Origin: Synechococcus sp. RS9916
GTDB taxonomy: Bacteria; Cyanobacteriota; Cyanobacteriia; PCC-6307; Cyanobiaceae
Assembly: GCF_000153825.1 (NCBI RefSeq)
Contig: NZ_DS022299.1
Coordinates: 2,072,869 to 2,136,868 of the forward strand
Length of the DNA: 64,000 nucleotides
Reading direction: 5' to 3'
A program made the position numbers and the translations under genes. A model generated the notes under the pieces. It searched no databases and was not told where the DNA came from. It saw only the letters and a list, made by a program, of their open reading frames with translations. Below are positions 26,460-50,601 of the stretch, piece after piece (position 1 is the stretch's first letter; each line of letters starts with the position of its first letter).

Positions 26460-28046
26460 ATGTCACAAACTCAGCCTGACGGCCAGCGCAAGCCGGCCAT
26501 TGTCATTCTCGATTTCGGTTCGCAGTATTCCGAGCTGATTGCCCGCCGCGTGCGGGAAACCGAGGTGTTTTCTTTGGTGCTGGGCTACAGCACCTCAGCA
26601 GCCGAGCTCCGGGAGATGGCGCCGGCAGGAATCATCCTCAGTGGGGGTCCCAGTTCGGTGTATTCGGAGGGCGCCCCTCTTTGTGATCCCGAAATCTGGA
26701 ACCTGGGCATCCCCGTGCTGGGGGTTTGCTACGGCATGCAGCTGATGGTGCAGCAGCTCGGTGGCGTGGTGGAAGCCGCCACCGGTAAGGCGGAATACGG
26801 CAAGGCTCCTCTGGAGGTGGACGATCCCACCGACCTGCTCACCAACGTCGATAGCGGCTCCACGATGTGGATGAGCCATGGCGATTCAGTGAAAGCCCTG
26901 CCGGAGGGCTTTGTGCGCCTGGCCCACACCGCCAACACGCCTGAAGCGGCCGTGGCGGATCACAACCGCCGGCTTTATGGCGTGCAGTTCCACCCCGAGG
27001 TGGTGCACTCCACCTGCGGCATGGCGTTGATCCGCAATTTCGTCTACCACGTCTGCGGATGTGAGCCGGATTGGACCACCGATGCCTTCATCGAGGAGGC
27101 GGTGGCTCTGGTGCGTGACCAGGTGGGTGATAAGCGGGTGCTGTTGGCCCTGTCTGGGGGTGTGGACTCGTCAACCCTCGCCTTCCTGCTCAAGAAGGCG
27201 ATCGGTGATCAGCTCACCTGCATGTTCATCGATCAGGGCTTCATGCGGAAGGGTGAGCCTGAGTTCCTGATGGACTTCTTCGATCGCAAGTTCAACATTC
27301 ACGTTGAGTACATCAATGCGCGTCAGCGCTTTCTGGCGAAGCTCAACGGCATCACTGATCCGGAGGAGAAGCGCAAGATCATCGGCACGGAATTCATCCG
27401 TGTGTTTGAAGAGGAAAGCAAGCGTCTCGGACCATTTGATTACCTCGCGCAGGGCACCCTGTATCCCGATGTGATCGAGAGTGCTGGCACCAACGTTGAC
27501 CCCAAGACGGGCGAACGGGTGGCCGTGAAGATCAAGAGCCACCACAACGTGGGTGGCTTGCCGAAGGATCTCCAGTTCAAGCTGGTGGAGCCCCTGCGCA
27601 AGCTGTTTAAAGACGAGGTGCGCAAGGTGGGCCGAAACCTTGGTCTTCCTGAGGAGATCGTGCGCCGCCATCCCTTCCCTGGTCCTGGTCTGGCCATCCG
27701 CATCCTGGGTGAGGTCACCGACGAGAAGCTGGATTGCCTTCGCGATGCCGATTTGATCGTGCGCGAGGAGATCAAGGAGGCAGGGCTCTACCACGACATC
27801 TGGCAGGCCTTTGCCGTGCTGCTTCCCGTGCGCTCCGTGGGCGTGATGGGCGACAAGCGCACCTACGCCTGGCCGATCGTGCTCCGTTGCGTGTCCAGCG
27901 AAGACGGCATGACCGCCGACTGGTCGCGTCTGCCAGCCGATCTGCTCGAGACGATCTCCAATCGCATCGTCAACGAAGTGAAGGGGGTCAACCGCGTGGT
28001 GCTCGACATCACCAGCAAGCCGCCCGGCACGATCGAGTGGGAATAG
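26460..28046 (+). CDS. guaA: GMP synthase (glutamine-hydrolysing)
   Basis: GuaA converts XMP to GMP using glutamine and ATP. The 528-aa protein has the class I amidotransferase domain ([18 protein letters not shown], catalytic Cys in LGVCYGMQL, and [11 protein letters not shown] with the triad His). The PP-loop [16 protein letters not shown] follows, and the C-terminal dimerisation domain ends KPPGTIEWE. The reading frame is intact even though a mobile element is inserted right at its 3' end. The last 12 bases of the gene are part of the attachment core duplicated at 33727-33740. Confidence 0.97.
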
Positions 28047-28047
28047 T
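28034..28047 (+). repeat. Attachment core, guaA side (attL)
   Basis: CGAGTGGGAATAGT includes the last codons of guaA (Glu-Trp-Glu-stop). An identical copy lies at 33727-33740. Bases directly outside differ on both sides, so the identity is exactly 14 bp. Confidence 0.9.
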
Positions 28048-28085
28048 CCGCAAGGTCTAACCGACTGGTATCACTGGATTGTTTG

Positions 28086-28104
28086 ACTACCCCGTGACTA
28101 CCCC
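28086..28104 (+). repeat. Arm-type repeat pair 1 (ACTACCCC x2)
   Basis: ACTACCCC at 28086 and 28097 are 11 bp apart in direct orientation, one helical turn. They lie 39 bp inside the left core. The same arrangement recurs at 28147 and at 33650. Confidence 0.7.
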
Positions 28105-28146
28105 TTAATTTCGGGGTCACCGTCACAGCAGGGTTTTGGGCGACCT

Positions 28147-28165
28147 ACTACCCCGCAACTACCCC
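28147..28165 (+). repeat. Arm-type repeat pair 2 (ACTACCCC x2)
   Basis: ACTACCCC at 28147 and 28158, again 11 bp apart and in the same orientation as pair 1. It lies between the left core and the integrase start, a usual place for integrase arm sites. Confidence 0.7.
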
Positions 28166-28197
28166 ACGTCACCCCGTCATCTTCTCTGTGAAGAAGT

Positions 28198-28221
28198 CGT
28201 AGAAGGTCTGTTTTCTCTACG
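28198..28221. promoter_or_regulatory. Inverted repeat upstream of the integrase gene
   Basis: CGTAGA ... TCTACG form a 6-bp dyad with a 12-base spacer, 18 bp before the integrase start. The right half is part of the element-wide 9-mer TTCTCTACG. A similar dyad lies upstream of the serine recombinase. Operator function is inferred. Confidence 0.4.
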
Positions 28222-28239
28222 GACGACAGGGGTGACGCC

Positions 28240-29625
28240 GTGACCAAAGGGAAGCGTGGAGGAGGCAGTAAGCACCAGTTGCTTTGGGAGGAAGTCCCCT
28301 TCCTGAAAGTTGAGAAGACGGGCAAACCAGTCGCCATCTATAAGAGGGAGGACGTGCAGAAGGACCTCCCGTTAGAGCAACGCAACTACTACGCCCACTT
28401 CCCCATCCGAGGGACCAGAGGCAAGCGGATGTCCCTTCTGGTTGCTGAAAGGGAAGAGGCGTTGATGAGGGTGCAGGAGGAGGCGGTAAACCTTCGGGTC
28501 CAACTGGCGCAGGGAGTGACTGTCGTCATCAAGACGACTGTGGAAGACCTTGTGGCGAAGTTTCTTGCTTACAAGCGGTCACGCATACGAGGTGAGTGGG
28601 AAGGCAAGGGAGAAGCAGGTCGGAAGAGCATCACCAAGGAGCGGTATGCCCTTATTGAGGGGAAATTGCGTAACTACCTCGTCCCCTTCCTTGGGGCGAA
28701 GACAGACGCCAAGAGCATCCCCATCAGGAAGTGGAGTGAGTGGGAGACGTGGCGACGACAAAACGTGAGAAGGGGTGGTGCTCCAAAGGCAGACACCCTG
28801 CTCAATGAGATGGGTCACATCAGGGAGTGTTGGAAGTGGGGTATGGAGCAAGGTCAAATCCCCTTTGCACCTGTCCTTCCTTTCAATGACGAAAACCTTG
28901 TTACTGACGACAAGGTGCGACGGGATACATGGGAATTGGACGAGTGGAATCGCTTCAAGTCCAAACCCGCCAAGTGGTTGAGAGAGCAGGAAAGCAAAGG
29001 CGAAGACGAATACTGGGACTGCTTCGTTGCCTATCAAATGCTCTTCTTCTTATCCAATAACGGGATGAGAGTGGGTGAGGTAGTGAAGGTGAGAAGGAAG
29101 GACATTCGTTTCTATGAAAGGAAGTTGGGTGATAGGACCAATTCCTTCAAGCGTTTAGGTGCCCTTGTCCAAGTGCATAAGAGCACCAAAACGGGTGCTC
29201 GTGAGGTCAACAGCATGGGTGGTGAGTTTGCGATGCGTGTTTATGAGAAAGCAACTCACAAGAGAAAGGATGACTTTCTCTTTCAGCATCTTGATGGGAG
29301 TCCCTTCACTACTCGCCAGTTTGGGACCTTATTCAGGAAGATATTGAAATATACGGACCAAGAGGAGGTTACTGGGAAGCGTCTGGTCCCTTATTCGTTG
29401 CGACACATGTATGCAACTACTCGTCTTCAACACGGCACATCACATAATGCACTTTGTGAGAATATGGGCGTGGGGGAATCTTACCTAAAAGTCCATTATT
29501 CTCATTATCTTCCACGTCTTGCAACAGAAGACCTGACTCGTATGCGTAACGATATTGGTCTTGATGGAAGATTTCTGCGAGAAGGTGATGACTTTGCTGT
29601 GATGGATGATGAAGTGACCAAGTGA
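28240..29625 (+). CDS. Tyrosine recombinase (integrase) of the guaA element
   Basis: A 461-aa site-specific recombinase. It has a basic N-terminal arm-binding part and a core-binding domain (VEDLVAKFLAYKRSRIRGEW). The catalytic domain has Arg I in NNGMRVGEVVKVRR (near 276), Lys on the beta hairpin (VHKSTKTGAREV), YSLRHMYATTRL with Arg II near 387, and the nucleophile Tyr in KVHYSHYLP (near 418). First-position His of HxxR is replaced by Tyr, as in many phage integrases. It starts at GTG 28240. It is adjacent to the attachment core and should catalyse integration and excision at guaA. The ORF is intact, and a strong hairpin follows. Confidence 0.93.
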   Translation: MTKGKRGGGSKHQLLWEEVPFLKVEKTGKPVAIYKREDVQKDLPLEQRNYYAHFPIRGTRGKRMSLLVAEREEALMRVQEEAVNLRVQLAQGVTVVIKTTVEDLVAKFLAYKRSRIRGEWEGKGEAGRKSITKERYALIEGKLRNYLVPFLGAKTDAKSIPIRKWSEWETWRRQNVRRGGAPKADTLLNEMGHIRECWKWGMEQGQIPFAPVLPFNDENLVTDDKVRRDTWELDEWNRFKSKPAKWLREQESKGEDEYWDCFVAYQMLFFLSNNGMRVGEVVKVRRKDIRFYERKLGDRTNSFKRLGALVQVHKSTKTGAREVNSMGGEFAMRVYEKATHKRKDDFLFQHLDGSPFTTRQFGTLFRKILKYTDQEEVTGKRLVPYSLRHMYATTRLQHGTSHNALCENMGVGESYLKVHYSHYLPRLATEDLTRMRNDIGLDGRFLREGDDFAVMDDEVTK

Positions 29626-29650
29626 CCGTCACTTCGTCATCAACCTTTTT
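29605..29650 (+). terminator. Terminator at the end of the integrase gene
   Basis: A 14-bp stem (GATGATGAAGTGAC with GTCACTTCGTCATC, one G-T pair), 9-base loop, then a run of T at 29646-29650. It begins inside the last integrase codons and includes the stop in its loop. It also faces the converging small-gene operon. Confidence 0.75.
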
Positions 29651-29738
29651 GGCGAAAAAAATCTGGGAGATTATTTTTTTATGCGAGACAACACTCGCTC
29701 GCTTTTGGTGCGTTGTAGGTTTGGGTCTCTATCGTTTT

Positions 29739-29888
29739 TTAGTTTGAGGGTGCTTTACTCCCGTATAACGTTAGTGACTTCTGCTTCTTCTTGTCCTTAT
29801 CATTCATTCCAAACTTCTTATCATCGTTTGGGTTATTGATAGCAGGACGGTCTGATAGAAAGTGCCTGAATGATTTGATGTTAGTCAT
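29739..29888 (-). CDS. Small basic protein, 49 aa, last gene of the rep operon
   Basis: Begins MTNIKSFRHFLSDRPAINNP and ends KKKQKSLTLYGSKAPSN, with a Lys/Asp-rich middle. The ATG overlaps the TGA of the preceding gene as ATGA, strong evidence for translational coupling. The sequence is polar and may be disordered or nucleic-acid binding. No family recognised. TAA stop at 29739. Confidence 0.5.
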   Translation of the reverse strand: MTNIKSFRHFLSDRPAINNPNDDKKFGMNDKDKKKQKSLTLYGSKAPSN

Positions 29889-30016
29889 CTCAATCTCTTG
29901 TATGCGTCATTGACTAATTCTTCAATCATCTGAATCGGTTTCTTCCTATTCTTCTTTGCAACTTCCTTCAACATCTCAATGGTGACGGGGTCTTTGACTT
30001 GTTGGAATGGATTCAT
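29885..30016 (-). CDS. Small putative ribbon-helix-helix-like protein, 43 aa
   Basis: Begins MNPFQQVKDPVTIEMLKEVA and continues with the helix KPIQMIEELVNDAYKRLR. The short strand followed by two helices resembles CopG/Arc-type or antitoxin-like small DNA-binding proteins, but the match is by eye. It starts two bases after the previous stop and ends with an ATGA overlap into the next gene. Confidence 0.5.
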   Translation of the reverse strand: MNPFQQVKDPVTIEMLKEVAKKNRKKPIQMIEELVNDAYKRLR

Positions 30017-30018
30017 GG

Positions 30019-30183
30019 TCACGATACTGATTTAACTACTTCCTTCCCAAACTCCTCACGAATCTTCTGTTTGACCCATGCAGAGCGTGAAATGCAGATT
30101 CGTTTTGTGCCTTCATTAAGCATTTCAAGTAACTACGTTTCGTCTCTACCAAAGGAGACAGGCATAAGTGTATTGCTTCTCAT
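30019..30183 (-). pseudogene. Ribbon-helix-helix-like small regulator with in-frame TAG
   Basis: A good ribosome binding site (GAGGG, 8 bases upstream) precedes ATG at 30183. The frame reads MRSNTLMPVSFGRDET, then TAG at 30133-30135, then LLEMLNEGTKRICISRSAWV, with KQKIREEFGKEVVKSVS and TGA. The part after the stop gives the usual RHH pattern (beta strand, helix, SRSAWV turn, helix), so the TAG splits a real protein. It could be a nonsense mutation, a readthrough site, or re-initiation at the ATG four codons later. Confidence 0.6.
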
Positions 30184-30272
30184 TTGTTTATTCCCTCGTT
30201 GAAATGATGCGATGCGTTTTCAATGGTTTATCCCTGTCTCTATTTATGTGATTTGCATGCTTCTTATATACA

Positions 30273-30899
30273 TTATTCCATGTCGCTATTCTCCCAATCA
30301 ATGTGCTCCCAAACATTGAAGTCCCAACTATCAAGCGACTTGTTGAGGTATTCAATTCTCCAATCAACTTCGCCAATATCCTTTGCGTTAAAACTTTGCT
30401 TCCCATGACCAAGACGAAAGACCCATCTCTACATGTGATGTGTAAGTGATTCAAGCATCATCTCCCCAATGGATTGCCTGCCTTGGATTAAATCCAATAT
30501 TGTGCTCTTCCTAATGCTTATCTTTCTATTCCTTTTGCTCAACCATTCCATCTCATCCATGCCCTCCATGAGGACGTGAAGGTGGAGGTCTCCGTCTTTA
30601 TGCTTCTCTACGAATAACCAAAACCGTATTCTGTTTTTTGGTTTCTTATTTGGATAGAAGAAGTCAAGGATGACTTTCTTGATATGCTCATTATCAAGGT
30701 ATTGATTGATGATGCATCTCTGTGGTTTGTAGAAGGAGAGTGTGAGGAAGTATCTAAACTTAAATCCTCTCTCCTTCGCTAAACCCTTTAACCATGCTTC
30801 TGTGGTCTTCCTCTTTGATAAACCGCGATATTGCAGTTTGGTGAAGTGACGGGGTGACTGAAGTAATTCCAATGCTTCCATCTTATCTAATCTGCTCAT
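30273..30899 (-). pseudogene. HUH-type replication initiator/relaxase-like Rep with in-frame TAG
   Basis: The first 156 residues show HUH motif I (YFLTLSFYKP, 50-59) and motif II (GDLHLHVLMEG, with His 106 and His 108). TAG lies at 30429-30431. The same frame continues 51 more codons to TAA at 30273, including DWRIEYLNKSLDSW, which fits motif III (YxxK, nucleophile Tyr). All three catalytic motifs are therefore present only if the TAG is read through. Rep proteins of this fold nick DNA for rolling-circle replication. Without readthrough the product would lack the tyrosine. Base composition is AT-rich. Confidence 0.75.
30844..30863 (+). repeat. 20-bp repeat copy inside rep (AAGTGACGGGGTGACTGAAG)
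   Basis: Matches the sequence at 33579-33598 in 18 of 20 positions. Its 12-bp core TGACGGGGTGAC also occurs inverted at 28168-28179. Location in the 5' part of rep is reminiscent of Rep origins, but this is inference. Confidence 0.5.
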
Positions 30900-31104
30900 G
30901 ACTGCTTCCGTTTCATTTGCGTATGTTTTATATATGCAAGTTATTCAGACAGCATATGTTTTTGTTTGCAATTAAACATAATTCCGATAGTTTGCACTCT
31001 TACACCGCTTTCTGGATGGTTTCGTCATCTCGTCATTCGGACGTTATGAAACACGAAACGACATTTTTAAGCATCTTTATTTGATTTCCATACTGCTTGC
31101 GGAC
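30900..31104. promoter_or_regulatory. AT-rich region upstream of rep
   Basis: About 205 bp without a credible gene, between the 320-aa gene and rep, both on the minus strand. The minus strand holds several TATA-like stretches (GCATATATAAAACATAC about 30-50 bp before the rep start) that could form its promoter. No defined origin repeats were found by eye. Confidence 0.35.
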
Positions 31105-32067
31105 TTAAAGCAGACCACTGTTTTTGAGGACAAAGTTTCTCCATATGACCAATTTGGTGCTCTCTTCATGAGCAAGCACTTCTTCAATGCGCCGCTTCAA
31201 GTTGTATCTGTTGGTCCTGCTTTCAGTCGTCTCTTGGAGGTGGTGGAGTTTGGCGACGTATGCCTGCCCATGGTCCTCATAGAAGTGCTGCTTCCCCCTA
31301 CCCGTCCTGATGAGGAAACCAGTGAAGGTGCGTAGTGGTGCGTCCCAGACCTCTTCAACGACTTTGAGGTTGAAGGTCTTCCTGACTTCCTTGTCCGTCT
31401 CTTGAAACCACTTCTGGGTCAGTTGCTCTTCCAAGACCTCTCTCCAAAACGCTGCCTTCTCCTTCCTGTCTGCTTCCCGTAGAGCAATGGTGCTTTCGTT
31501 GGATGCCTTACGGATGTCCATCCCGTAGCGAGAGCAGACCTTGCGTAGGTCCTCCTCCAACTGCCGTTGCAGGTATTCGCTCAATGGAGTGTCTTCTGGT
31601 CGGCAGACCCGATACAGCGTCTCTTCCTTGATGCTCCAACGTCCTTTCTCAACGTCCCCACCCAGCGACTGACGAGGGAAACGGACTTGTTTGACGTAGG
31701 TGGTTGCTGCTCTGACCGATGTCTTGGGGGTGACCTGCTTCGTCTTGACCGCTGTCGCTAACTCGTCTGGTTTCAGGGCACAGAGCAGATGAATCGTGGA
31801 ATAGGAGGCGGGTAACCCTTTGGTGACTTCTCTACGGGTCTTGTCGTCCAGTTGACCCAGTTGGTCGCCTATGACCTTCAACTTGGAGAAGACCTTCTCT
31901 CCCAGAGCAGTGGCGTCCCTGTAAATGGACAGGGTGGTTGGAGACAGACGGTCTGCTGCTGCTGCAATCCCCAGTGAAAGGGTCACTACCTGCTCTGCTG
32001 TGCCTGTGTGGGGGTTTTCAGCGACAAACTGCTTGAAGGTCGCCAGACCCTTTTCTTCGGCAGTCAC
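31105..32067 (-). CDS. Putative DNA-binding protein of the element, 320 aa
   Basis: No known family is certain. The middle part (KGLPASYSTIHLLCALKPDE, then LATAVKTKQVTPKTSVRAA) has the look of the helix-turn-helix region found in phage and plasmid ParB/KorB-like or DUF3102-like proteins. The N-terminus is helical (TFKQFVAENPHTGTAEQVVT), and the C-terminal half is charged and helical. The frame is intact, with TAA stop. GC content is nearer to host than that of rep. A role in element regulation or replication is inferred from place only. Confidence 0.6.
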   Translation of the reverse strand: MTAEEKGLATFKQFVAENPHTGTAEQVVTLSLGIAAAADRLSPTTLSIYRDATALGEKVFSKLKVIGDQLGQLDDKTRREVTKGLPASYSTIHLLCALKPDELATAVKTKQVTPKTSVRAATTYVKQVRFPRQSLGGDVEKGRWSIKEETLYRVCRPEDTPLSEYLQRQLEEDLRKVCSRYGMDIRKASNESTIALREADRKEKAAFWREVLEEQLTQKWFQETDKEVRKTFNLKVVEEVWDAPLRTFTGFLIRTGRGKQHFYEDHGQAYVAKLHHLQETTESRTNRYNLKRRIEEVLAHEESTKLVIWRNFVLKNSGLL

Positions 32068-32111
32068 TTAGTTACTGTTTTTTGGGAAAAGATACGACGT
32101 GCCGTAGAGAA

Positions 32112-32291
32112 ATGGTCAAAAAAAACCCAAGAGGAGTAACTAGCTTCCCCAGCATCATGGTTTTTACATTGTTGTTAGCAGCTCAGGTAAGACCCAGCTC
32201 AGTTAATCGGGCGTTAACCCCGCTGACTTGCGTTGAAGGTCTGATTGTGTGCAGAGAAGCAGATCGGTGCGAGTTGTTAGAAAATTACTAA
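32112..32291 (+). CDS. Small exported protein, 59 aa, unknown function
   Basis: ATG at 32112 gives MVKKNPRGVTSFPSIMVFTL as a basic N-terminus and hydrophobic core, cleavage possibly after AAQV. The mature part has three cysteines in LTCVEGLIVCREADRCELLENY. The element motif CGTAGAGAA sits directly before the ATG. The stop overlaps the convergent gene by 4 bases. Evidence is only the signal-like pattern. Confidence 0.4.
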   Translation: MVKKNPRGVTSFPSIMVFTLLLAAQVRPSSVNRALTPLTCVEGLIVCREADRCELLENY

Positions 32292-32551
32292 TCGCACTTG
32301 CCATCAGTGTATGTATCAAAAGCTATTTTTGGACCCCCTGTGGTTGCATTAATCTCTTCAATTGTGAGCCATACGCCTACGGGTCGCTGAAATACGTCTG
32401 CCATATCTTCGTCGGTAATCATAATTTTTCTGGTTTCGCAATTTGCCTTTGCTACATTTATGCCCACAACATCGACTATAATTTCTTTCGCCTTTGCGTC
32501 TGGTTGTAATGTTATGGTCGCCAGTGCTACAAGGATAATTAGCTTTCTCAT
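32288..32551 (-). CDS. Small secreted protein, 87 aa, unknown function
   Basis: A signal peptide (MRKLIILVALATITLQPDAKA) is followed by a 66-aa mature part with two cysteines (KANCETRK and the C-terminal GKCD) that may form a disulfide. The stop TAG is followed directly by TAA, so TAG is used here as a real stop. No family recognised. It lies just downstream of the serine recombinase on the same strand. Confidence 0.6.
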   Translation of the reverse strand: MRKLIILVALATITLQPDAKAKEIIVDVVGINVAKANCETRKIMITDEDMADVFQRPVGVWLTIEEINATTGGPKIAFDTYTDGKCD

Positions 32552-32572
32552 CTTGAAAGATTATAGTTAATG

Positions 32573-33250
32573 TCAATTATATAGCATCTGTGCTGCTTTT
32601 ATTCGTTTGAGCATTTGAGAGACCAGTGGTGGATAGAAGACACCGCCTTTGCTGGTCCTTGCTCCACTCGCGTTTAAGACCCCACAGATGGTCCGTAGAG
32701 AAGCGCCTGACTGTCGTAGCGGGACAATCACTCCTTCCACCTTCTGGGCGTCTTCCAGTGCCCTCTGCTTCTTTGCTTTCGCCAAGGCGTCTATGTGGTG
32801 GACGGGTGCTCCAAGACGGATTCCTCTTGCCTTCGCTGCTTGAAGGGCAGCAGTTGTCCTTTGGGAGATAAACGCTCTTTCCTGCTCCGCCAGTGCTGCA
32901 TAGATGTGCAGTTGAAACCTGTCTGCATAAGGCATTTGGGCGACCTTGAAGTCCAACCCCTTCTCCTCCATCAGTGCCGCCAGAAAACTGACCCGACGGG
33001 ACAACCTGTCCAACTTGGCGACCACCAGCACTGCTTCTGTCTTCTTCGCCAGAGCAATGGCGGCATTCAGTTGAGGACGGTCGTTGTCTGACCCTGTGTG
33101 GGTCTCTACGAAGTCCCCGACCACTTCATATGGGGACTCTGCGTAGTTGTCCAAGAAGAGTTGAATGTCCCGTGCTTGCGCCTCCAACCCAAGGCCGCTC
33201 TTCCCTTGCTCTGTGCTGCTGACCCTTCGGTAGGTGACGTATTTCCTCAT
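32573..33250 (-). CDS. Serine recombinase (resolvase/invertase family)
   Basis: A 225-aa protein. The catalytic Ser is in YRRVSSTEQGKSGLGLEAQ, with DRPQLNAAIALA, the arginine segment VAKLDRLSRRVSFLA, and LAEQERAFISQRTTAALQ. The C-terminal HTH is SGASLRTICGVLNASGARTS. It resembles small DNA resolvases that resolve multimers or invert DNA. The start is ATG at 33250, and an upstream alternative at 33268 has no conserved residues. A dyad of the element motif lies about 54 bp upstream. It could resolve element dimers formed during Rep-driven replication. Confidence 0.92.
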   Translation of the reverse strand: MRKYVTYRRVSSTEQGKSGLGLEAQARDIQLFLDNYAESPYEVVGDFVETHTGSDNDRPQLNAAIALAKKTEAVLVVAKLDRLSRRVSFLAALMEEKGLDFKVAQMPYADRFQLHIYAALAEQERAFISQRTTAALQAAKARGIRLGAPVHHIDALAKAKKQRALEDAQKVEGVIVPLRQSGASLRTICGVLNASGARTSKGGVFYPPLVSQMLKRIKAAQMLYN

Positions 33251-33303
33251 TTGACCCTCCGTTTTCAACCGAAACGACCGTTTGACTGAAAACAGAATAC
33301 GAT

Positions 33304-33320
33304 TTCTCTACGCGTAGAAG
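33304..33320. promoter_or_regulatory. Dyad TTCTCTACG-CGTAGAAG upstream of the serine recombinase
   Basis: A nearly perfect inverted repeat with CTACGCGTAG at its centre, about 54 bp upstream of the recombinase ATG. It could be a resolution half-site or an operator. The left half equals the element-wide 9-mer. Confidence 0.45.
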
Positions 33321-33578
33321 TAGTATCCAGATGAGCAAGTGTCCCCTTCCCGCACTCGGGAATGTCTTTTTCATGCCGCGCCCACGCCATTGAGTTGGGT
33401 GGTCATGGATGTTTCGCGCGTTGCTCCTGCCCAAGCAAAGAAGAAGGCGCTTGCTCTGCGCCGCGCCCTTGCGCTTCGCAGGGGTAGAGAGTGCGGAAGA
33501 GGAATAGTTTCTCCGCGCCTTGTCGCGACTCTTGCGGAAGGTCTTCTTCTCTGTCCCAAACTCACTCTGCTGGACGCG

Positions 33579-33598
33579 AAGTGACGGGATGACTGATG
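33579..33598 (+). repeat. 20-bp repeat copy near the right end
   Basis: AAGTGACGGGATGACTGATG, 18 of 20 identical to 30844-30863. It is followed directly by CGTAGAGAA, another element repeat. Confidence 0.5.
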
Positions 33599-33649
33599 CG
33601 TAGAGAAGTGGTTTAAGTGCCCTGAAATAGGTTTGGTCAGGTTGCTTTT

Positions 33650-33668
33650 ACTACCCCGTAACTACCCC
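33650..33668 (+). repeat. Arm-type repeat pair 3 (ACTACCCC x2)
   Basis: ACTACCCC at 33650 and 33661, 11 bp apart, same orientation as pairs 1 and 2. It lies 58 bp inside the right core. Confidence 0.7.
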
Positions 33669-33726
33669 GTGTGTCTAGCAGATGTCATAACCCAGTGTTT
33701 GTGGGACTGTTGGTTGAGCGGTTAAC

Positions 33727-33740
33727 CGAGTGGGAATAGT
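33727..33740 (+). repeat. Attachment core, far side (attR)
   Basis: Exact 14-bp copy of the guaA 3' end (28034-28047). DNA after it returns to host-like composition. Confidence 0.9.
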
Positions 33741-47829: not shown

Positions 47830-50601
47830 TTAGGTGACCGAATCAAACTGGAAACCAATGATGTGATCGTCGAAGTCACGGTCACCACCACCGAACTGGT
47901 CTTCGAGTCCAAAGACGTTGTTGCCAAGCACGCGGAAGTGGCTGATGCCATCGGCGTTGGCTTTGGCAAAGGCAAAGAAGGTATTGCTCTGCACCTTGGC
48001 GTAGGGGGCCAGGTAGCCGCCGAGGTCCCCCATCTCGAGCGATGCCTCTTCCGTTTTGTTATTGGCCAGAGAGAAGGTGAACGTGTCTCCGCCGTAAAGG
48101 TTGTCGGCGCGCAACGCTGCTTCGGTGTAACCGGCTGCGCCTGGGGCAATGAGAGAGCCGTCAGCAGCCATCACGACGCCGGTGGGATCGACCACGCGGT
48201 AGAAGCCGGTGAGGGCATCCAGGGTGGCTTCACGGGCCTGGGCCCAGACCCCACGCAAGGATTCGCCATTGCTGAAGGCTGTGCCATCCAGTACTGGAGC
48301 GATGCCTTGTTCTTGGGCCACTAGGGCATTCAGACCTTGGTCGTTGGCATTGAGAGCAAGGTTGAAGCTCAGCCCTGCGCTTGCTGCGAAAGAGACGCTG
48401 CCATCGCTGTTGACCGTTGAATCCAGGAAAGACAAACGGGAATCTTTCACGCTCTTGAGTGTGTCGAGCGTGGTGTCTGCCAAAGAGAAGAAGCGCAGGG
48501 ATTGGCCGTTGCGAACCAGCAGATCACGCTTGAACGTGTAGTTGTCAGGAATGACGACGTCGTCTGCTTCCAGGCTGCTGAACACGATGGTGGCGCGCTC
48601 CTTGAGTTGATCAAGATCACCAAGAATGGTCTTGGCGGAGGCGACTTCGTTGGCATCCAGCACGATGTAGCCAATTTGGTGTACAGCCTTACTGCGCCCG
48701 GTAATGGTGGCGCTGAGGTTTAAAGCGGCAGGTGCAGCATTGTTGGGGTCGGCAATCGTGAGCAGATTGAAGGGCCCATCATTGGCTTGGATAACAGGAT
48801 CCAGTGCCACGGAGGCTGCAGTGGATGGATCGACAATCACTCCATTTTTTGTCCCGTCTTTGTCGCCGAATCCGCCATCGATCAGAGTCAGGGAGAGGTA
48901 ATCGGCAAGTCCATCGCCATCGAGGTCATAGAAACGGGCGCCGGCATTGACGAGCGGGTCAAAACTCAGGGCTGAAACCTCTCCTTCGTCATCAACGGAG
49001 TAGTAAAGAAGTTTTTGAGAGGTGTCGCGTTTTCCTTCGCTTGTCGTGATGGCACCATTCTCGAAGTTGAGGCTTGAGAGGGCCAGATTGAACGTGGTTC
49101 TGGGAATGCTCTCGTCAATCGCGGCTTCAAAATTGAGGGAGTCGGTCTGCAGTGTGATGCCGGAATCACTCAGTACTGCGCGAGCTTTTGAGTTGATTGC
49201 GTCGACTGTTGTGACCAATGAAATATTGGTCGCCTTGTCTGAACCGCTGAGGTAGGAGATTTCAGTGTTCGGCGCCGCCTCTGCTGCCTTTGCTGCCGCC
49301 TCTGCTTCAGCCGCCGCCGCTGCCGCTGCTGCGACTACCTCTTCAATATTTCTCTTTGACTGAATAATGATATTGCTAAACAAGTCATTATTGTCTGCGT
49401 CGAACATGTTGACGTCGGCGAAAACGATTGTATTGCCACTGCCGACGGTCTCTCGGGCCATGACAATGTTGTTGGTCGCGTTTTCGCTGGTGACAAGAAT
49501 CGCTTCGGCGGACTCGTCGTCGATTTCTAAGGCGCCAAATGTGCGTGTTTGTACTGTGCTTAATCCGGATGTAATATCGTAATTTCCGATTTCTACAATA
49601 TCGGTTGTGCCATCGGGTGGTGTTGCATTCAAATCATTATCGCGAATAGATCCAACTCCTTCTTTGACTGCAATCGAGGAGCCTACGTAGTTAAGAATTT
49701 CGCTTGCGTTTGAATTTATGTCATCAAAGCTAGGGCTCCATTCGCCGCTGATGAGAAGTGTTCCTCCTCCCTCGACAAATTGCTTGAGATTGTCGAGCTG
49801 GCTTGTTGTTGGTACGGATTTTGGAAAAATAATGTAAACAAGATCAGCGTCTATTTCGCTATCTAAAAAAGAGTAGTCGTCGGTGTATGTTGTATAGCTA
49901 AGGTTGCCAATGGCGTCGAAGGTTGGCTTGACATAAGCTGTATCAATGCTGTATTGGCTGGCCGCGTAGCCAACGGCAGTGATCTGTTCGCTGCTCGTTA
50001 GAGGAGCGCTCGCCTGAGGTCCTTCGCTAAAGGTCGCATAACTCACTGTCGCGAGTTGATAGGCCCAGGTATCACTGTCTCCGAAGTTCAGTGGCCAATT
50101 GATGGTATTGCTGTGCCCCTTTGAATGGAGAGTCCAGTGTTTTTGGCCGTCGGTATCGAGGCCCAAGATGCCGCTCGATGAATAGACGGAGGTCCCAAGC
50201 AGCTCTTCCCAAAGGCTCAACGCACTGTTGTCGGCTCCGTAATCGCAAGCCCAAAGCGCAAGTTCATCCAGCTGCCAGTCGATCAGTTGGTTGCTGGCTG
50301 CCAGCAGAGCAGCGCGATTAACCTTTTTTTCTCCAACGCGCAGCACGCCTGGGCTGCCGTGGCTGACCCAGTGCAGCGCCTTCACTGGTTGTCCGTGCTC
50401 GCGACGATCTGACAACGCATCGCTGATGGCGGCCAAGGGCTCCTGTTCGCCGTCCAGCCACAGCACCGGCACCAAGGCCTCAGCCAGCAGCTCCCGGATC
50501 TTGGGGCAGCTGCCGTCAGCAACGATCAGCGTGGCCTGTCTCTGCCCTTGGGTTGTGGTGGAGTTGTTGATCTGCTCGAGTCCGCAGGCTTTCAGGGTCA
50601 T
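47830..50601 (-). CDS. Large surface or secreted protein with DUF4347 and DUF4114 domains
   Basis: 923 aa. Domain order: DUF4347 (ALHWVSHGSPGVLRVGEKKV, ELALWACDYGADNSALSLWE), a ThuA/GATase-like segment (SFLDSEIDADLVYIIFPKSV, GGTLLISGEWSP), an Ala/Glu-rich helix (VVAAAAAAAAEAEAAAKAAE near 430), beta-rich repeats, and a C-terminal DUF4114 (NTFFAFAKANADGISHFRVL, NNVFGLEDQFGGGDRDFDDH). The acidic DxDxD-like ends suggest Ca2+ binding. No Sec signal is visible. Such proteins often leave by type I secretion, which fits the HlyD/ABC genes at 59617-63811. The N-terminal half (49200-50060) is AT-richer than the rest. Confidence 0.8.
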   Translation of the reverse strand: MTLKACGLEQINNSTTTQGQRQATLIVADGSCPKIRELLAEALVPVLWLDGEQEPLAAISDALSDRREHGQPVKALHWVSHGSPGVLRVGEKKVNRAALLAASNQLIDWQLDELALWACDYGADNSALSLWEELLGTSVYSSSGILGLDTDGQKHWTLHSKGHSNTINWPLNFGDSDTWAYQLATVSYATFSEGPQASAPLTSSEQITAVGYAASQYSIDTAYVKPTFDAIGNLSYTTYTDDYSFLDSEIDADLVYIIFPKSVPTTSQLDNLKQFVEGGGTLLISGEWSPSFDDINSNASEILNYVGSSIAVKEGVGSIRDNDLNATPPDGTTDIVEIGNYDITSGLSTVQTRTFGALEIDDESAEAILVTSENATNNIVMARETVGSGNTIVFADVNMFDADNNDLFSNIIIQSKRNIEEVVAAAAAAAAEAEAAAKAAEAAPNTEISYLSGSDKATNISLVTTVDAINSKARAVLSDSGITLQTDSLNFEAAIDESIPRTTFNLALSSLNFENGAITTSEGKRDTSQKLLYYSVDDEGEVSALSFDPLVNAGARFYDLDGDGLADYLSLTLIDGGFGDKDGTKNGVIVDPSTAASVALDPVIQANDGPFNLLTIADPNNAAPAALNLSATITGRSKAVHQIGYIVLDANEVASAKTILGDLDQLKERATIVFSSLEADDVVIPDNYTFKRDLLVRNGQSLRFFSLADTTLDTLKSVKDSRLSFLDSTVNSDGSVSFAASAGLSFNLALNANDQGLNALVAQEQGIAPVLDGTAFSNGESLRGVWAQAREATLDALTGFYRVVDPTGVVMAADGSLIAPGAAGYTEAALRADNLYGGDTFTFSLANNKTEEASLEMGDLGGYLAPYAKVQSNTFFAFAKANADGISHFRVLGNNVFGLEDQFGGGDRDFDDHIIGFQFDSVT

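Follow-up and report, generated by a model that had tools for sequence, protein, structure and literature searches.

The window (the whole 64,000-nucleotide stretch of DNA that was analysed) carries an element of ~5.7 kb, from 28034 to 33740, which has integrated into the 3' end of guaA and is bounded by 14-bp direct repeats; guaA itself (528 aa) remains complete despite the insertion. The G+C content, in 2-kb bins, is 46-52% over the element, compared with 61-63% for the two bins to either side of it. (A local dip in G+C, to 0.528, is also seen at 48001-50000 of the window.) The host is, by kinship, a picocyanobacterium, the closest genome being labelled with the same genus. The closest relative of the element's rep gene (97% identical at the amino acid level) is a copy in Synechococcus sp. 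AG-679-A04 (contig QCUI01000027.1; L011), which we take to be a marine single-cell genome. In order of coordinates, the features are:

28034-28047, no strand: attL, 14-bp direct repeat over the last guaA codons, identical to the 14-mer at 33727-33740
28240-29625, plus strand: tyrosine recombinase (integrase), 461 aa, intact; PF00589, E 6.8e-11; 98% identical in L011
29885-30016, minus strand: small ORF, 43 aa, intact; also in L011; no Pfam match above cut-off
30019-30183, minus strand: small ORF with in-frame TAG; 54 codons in L011; no Pfam match
30273-30899, minus strand: rep, HUH endonuclease frame, with motif I FLTLSF, motif II HLH, TAG and motif III YLNK
30429-30431, minus strand: in-frame TAG splitting rep motifs I and II from motif III (from translation and alignment)
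30900-30965, minus strand: conserved non-coding block upstream of rep (from an alignment of 8 upstream regions)
31105-32067, minus strand: orf320, conserved element gene; homologues 39-97.5% identical; no Pfam match above cut-off
32288-32551, minus strand: orf87, no family (from the ORF list and Pfam)
32573-33268, minus strand: serine recombinase with resolvase/invertase-type N-terminal domain, intact; PF00239, E 1.7e-24
33727-33740, no strand: attR, 14-bp direct repeat identical to the attL 14-mer

The site-specific integrase (PF00589) and the direct att repeats at both ends identify an integrated plasmid-like element; no extrachromosomal copy of it was found, and there is no match in the plasmid collection. 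The conserved block at 30900-30965 is a candidate origin, promoter or operator; its inverted repeats are weak and not common to all eight upstream regions. (A search for defence systems returned the serine recombinase as Cas4, a single weak match that is not credible.)

The rep frame comprises 208 codons on the minus strand (30899-30273): 156 codons, a TAG at 30431-30429, 51 codons and a TAA, the TAG falling between motif II (HLH) and motif III (YLNK). (In practical terms, a mechanical ORF list yields only a 156-aa product, the truncation that the preliminary description expected of gene callers; its coordinates, motif residues and truncated length are all reproduced when the frame is translated.) Residues F51-F56 (FLTLSF) constitute motif I, the FLTL of which, like the FITL, FLTL or similar of close relatives, conforms to the UUTU definition for HUH Reps given in the available text of PMC6668415; H106 and H108 supply the HUH of motif II. 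The YxxK of motif III is missing from the translated product, its Tyr codon lying beyond the TAG, and the window gene looks like an HUH Rep pseudogene, not a working member of that family. Motif III is nevertheless genuine, as had been claimed: its Tyr and Lys are invariant in the aligned relatives. The part of rep that precedes the TAG matches Pfam family PF23343 (REP_ORF2-G2P) at 31.8 bits (cut-off 27.8) over residues 50-127, that is, from motif I to slightly beyond motif II, with motif III outside the match; the part that follows is 42.9-96.1% identical to nine other loci. Matches on both sides of the TAG make the frame more than a chance occurrence. Relative to the AG-679-A04 copy, the N-terminal part, with motifs I and II intact, is 97% identical and the part beyond the TAG 96% identical. 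No helicase domain was found in the 208-aa Rep with Pfam. The AlphaFold model (mean pLDDT 36.3) is too poor for fold comparison, and PDB sequences searched with an eight-row Rep profile gave just eight unrelated matches (E 0.2-0.81).

The 156-aa part of Rep has matches in 9 of 400 genomes of the host's family, and the eight-row profile in 15 of 399 genomes of the order, the host's own genome being included in each count. Twelve Rep loci were compared with that of the window (L011-L018 and L077-L080; six weak matches, L030-L035, for which no stop is listed, were left out of this count). Eleven of them have HxH and a downstream YxxK in one uninterrupted frame (YLNKS, YVNKS, YTNKS, YMNKE, YCSKQ or YCTKQ; L077-L079, which the motif pattern missed, were judged by eye), and no stop separates the two motifs in any of these 11. 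Of the twelfth, L080, no more than a C-terminal remnant with YVNKS is left. Neither the Tyr nor the Lys of YxxK varies in an alignment of six sequences or among eight relatives down to 18-24% identity; both His residues of motif II are invariant in the eight-row alignment, and the residue between them is Arg, not hydrophobic, in L017 and L018. In the profile search, five rows other than the window's (G265, G009, G294, G437 and G004) are listed with one stop, and these stops lie outside the motifs, since the frames from HxH to YxxK are open. Among the sequences of the eight-row alignment, five match PF23343 (E up to 0.01). Five Reps of the window's family have no match in PHROGs (E up to 0.1), and the 156-aa part has none by tblastn in phage and plasmid collections (E up to 0.01). 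Short Rep peptide patterns found no relatives in IMG/VR, a method that reaches only sequences sharing those stretches. No intact copy of Rep that might serve as a helper was found elsewhere in the window genome.

At the position of the TAG, the five close relatives in the alignment of six have the sense residues K, Q, Q, Q and K. Homologues ending at this point without motif III, the refuting case named in the preliminary description, do not occur among the relatives compared; all of them carry a sense codon there, and the TAG thus lies inside a conserved gene. The suggestion of a recent nonsense mutation gains its support from the same comparison.

A second TAG private to the window (30135-30133) interrupts the small ORF beside rep (30183-30019) at what is a sense codon in AG-679-A04, and is found in no relative compared. 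Homologues of this ORF occur at 7 of 13 loci searched, and each of those 7 has an open rep; L016-L018, whose rep is open but distant, are without one. (Its product looks ribbon-helix-helix-like by eye only; five members compared with Pfam gave no match.) The presence of two such codons bears on one alternative, an error of sequencing or assembly that conceals an intact rep. The rep frame is indeed intact on both sides of its TAG and nearly identical to that of AG-679-A04, as an error would leave it, but the second TAG is about 300 bases off, with silent differences beside it, so that two independent errors would be needed, and the genome is a single contig of 2,664,873 bases with 99.97% completeness. 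We consider an error improbable.

The other suggestion made at the outset was programmed TAG readthrough or amber suppression, which would allow low-level synthesis of full-length Rep and so throttle replication. Frames that stay open past both TAGs, the occurrence of two TAGs in one module, and the close likeness of the post-TAG part of rep to that of AG-679-A04 (96% identity) speak for it; to this extent an open frame past the TAG is a counterpoint to the nonsense reading, since readthrough would explain it as recent mutation does. Against readthrough, none of the 41 tRNA loci of the window genome has a CUA anticodon (the loci were found with Rfam RF00005, and a tRNA missed by RF00005 escapes this count). 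TAG serves as a normal stop: guaA terminates with it, and so do 4 of the window's 36 long ORFs (at least 250 aa, with little overlap, chosen mechanically). Moreover, both TAGs are absent from the relatives compared, the rep TAG occurring at no other Rep locus among them. Readthrough is thus unsupported and very unlikely, and a suppressor tRNA was rejected on the anticodon count and the use of TAG as terminator. Re-initiation past the rep TAG was rejected as well: between the stop and the Tyr codon the frame contains no ATG, GTG or TTG, and it has two ATT codons. A working role for the 156-aa product, such as that of a DNA-binding repressor or a dominant-negative Rep, would suit its intact motifs I and II and an N-terminal part 97% identical to that of AG-679-A04, but the truncation is private to the window strain among the loci compared and no relative ends there, and we find this proposal highly doubtful. 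Scarcely credible is a joint low-level readthrough switch formed by the paired ambers of rep and the small gene, holding the element integrated unless amber is decoded, and no less far-fetched its triggering of replication, for example by stress or a phage-borne suppressor.

An ordinary nonsense mutation also agrees with the pattern of divergence from the AG-679-A04 copy. The rep genes differ by 2 synonymous, 6 non-synonymous and 1 nonsense change (omega about 0.7, a value that rests on few changes and is too small a sample for a firm test) and the small ORFs at 30183-30019 by 4 synonymous, 1 non-synonymous and 1 nonsense change; the integrase genes differ by 47 synonymous and 7 non-synonymous changes (omega, or dN/dS, 0.04) and the orf320 genes by 14 and 8, respectively (omega 0.18). 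The element is a mosaic, since dS differs between integrase (0.17), orf320 (0.06) and rep (0.02). Residue 153 is the same in the window and L012-L015 and deviates in AG-679-A04, so that not all changes in rep belong to the window lineage. Of random single changes in the AG-679-A04 genes, 5.9% produce a stop in rep and 5.1% in the small ORF, with TAG the commonest of the three stops in both; two stops among 15 changes therefore need no special cause. The mutation looks recent because rep has decayed little beyond its stop. Most likely, then, the rep stop arose by an ordinary loss-of-function mutation of recent date, with no special decoding involved.

The frames, their stops, the relatives and the border repeats are direct observations; from them we infer the loss of Rep function, while the function of intact Rep is predicted from its motifs and one Pfam family. 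For the intact relatives, the expected course is that the tyrosine integrase inserts a circular form at, and later excises it from, the guaA 3' end and that the HUH Rep nicks the excised circle at its origin by way of the YxxK Tyr, nicking being the presumed start of rolling-circle replication. (The motif III Tyr of HUH Reps makes the nick and the covalent bond, according to the available text of PMC5714925 and PMC6668415.) In the window strain the private amber cuts Rep off after residue 156, leaving a product with motif I and the metal-binding HxH and without the nucleophilic Tyr; such a protein should retain metal and DNA contacts but be unable to cut. A second amber terminates the adjacent small conserved gene. 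Private amber codons in both genes suggest that the replication module is dead; most likely it is non-functional and the element no longer replicates by itself, but would be passively copied along with the chromosome, its integrase, orf320 and serine recombinase genes remaining intact. Taken as a whole, an integrated plasmid-like element with a private nonsense mutation in rep, a second amber beside it and a replication module that is likely dead is the reading in which we place high confidence.

Over 28000-31999, the window element and that of AG-679-A04 are 95.5-99.5% identical in 16 of 20 200-bp bins and 88.5-93.5% identical in the other four, and the flanking guaA bins are 75.5-88% identical. 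The excess of element identity over that of adjacent guaA implies that the element moved between species recently, and by this comparison of two species it is mobile between hosts. The match to AG-679-A04 extends to window position 32112, which is some 410 bases short of the end of that contig, and the orf87/serine-recombinase part is consequently unmatched in the AG-679-A04 sequence at hand. The arrangement integrase-rep-orf320 beside guaA recurs in L011-L015, L077 and L079, and the same seven have orf320 homologues adjoining rep; a serine recombinase, 60-83% identical, lies beyond orf320 in L012-L014, L077 and L079, and none was found in the L015 stretch. Repeats of the guaA end, 11-18 bp long, also lie on the far side of the elements of L012-L015; in L011 the contig stops and the far repeat is consequently missing. 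The 16 kb of L078 include rep and the small ORF but no guaA. Judged from these sequences, the element is one of a family of plasmid-like elements that carry a Rep and integrate at guaA.

Integrases of the element's family (E up to 1e-40) are found in 10 of 400 genomes, the host's own included. Past the integrase end at guaA, L014 and L015 have more than one further copy of the att repeat, suggesting elements stacked at one site. L091 and L092 have an integrase and, adjoining it, orf320 at guaA, with no rep match in the search used (they perhaps carry another replication module), and L093 and L094 have decayed integrases at guaA with in-frame stops (the one at L093:5474-6946, in another genome, has a single in-frame TAG). 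From these four loci, Rep seems dispensable for persistence at guaA. L014:4419-6416 encodes a 665-aa cargo protein that matches PHROG 28855, with DUF5906 below cut-off, and is perhaps of helicase/primase type; L080:5912-7786 and L093:7231-9321, from two genomes, are large ORFs that resemble each other, look acyltransferase-like by eye and lie between guaA and orf203.

Prochlorococcus tycheposons are likewise integrase-driven picocyanobacterial islands, using tRNA genes where the window element uses guaA. Two other islands, GIsul2 and ICERspD18B, reportedly use guaA as integration site. Both are integrase-bearing and are described in papers whose available text mentions guaA (PMC9376610 and PMC7775301, respectively); their hosts are other organisms, and the window element differs from them by its HUH Rep, orf320 and serine recombinase. 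Integrated HUH-Rep plasmids (Kazlauskas et al. 2019, PMC6668415) are comparable, according to the available text, in that an HUH Rep resides in an att-bounded, site-specific chromosomal element, and their Reps share the motif set UUTU, HUH, YxxK with the window Rep. The pCRESS Reps in the same text are nuclease-helicase fusions, whereas the window Rep has 208 aa and no helicase domain in Pfam; the term "cyanobacteri" is absent from the main text of that paper. The HUH replication proteins of PF23343 resemble the window Rep over residues 50-127 and in the single Tyr of the relatives' YxxK; on the other hand, the Pfam match excludes motif III, and PHROGs, phage and plasmid matches are lacking. 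The marine elements in the available text of PMC12324425 are other than the window's. Among the open-licence papers listed, none is, by title or abstract, about this element or about amber readthrough in a prokaryotic Rep, an absence that counts for little as evidence.

The nonsense mutation itself is ordinary, and the element is more useful. Were readthrough true, it would tie an integrated element in a new way to the state of decoding in the cell, but the evidence speaks against it. The guaA-specific family of plasmid-like islands spans several genera of one picocyanobacterial family, and within it the window strain, with a recently broken replication module, and the close copy with an open rep in another species form a natural pair that could show whether Rep matters for the spread of these elements or only for their copy number.
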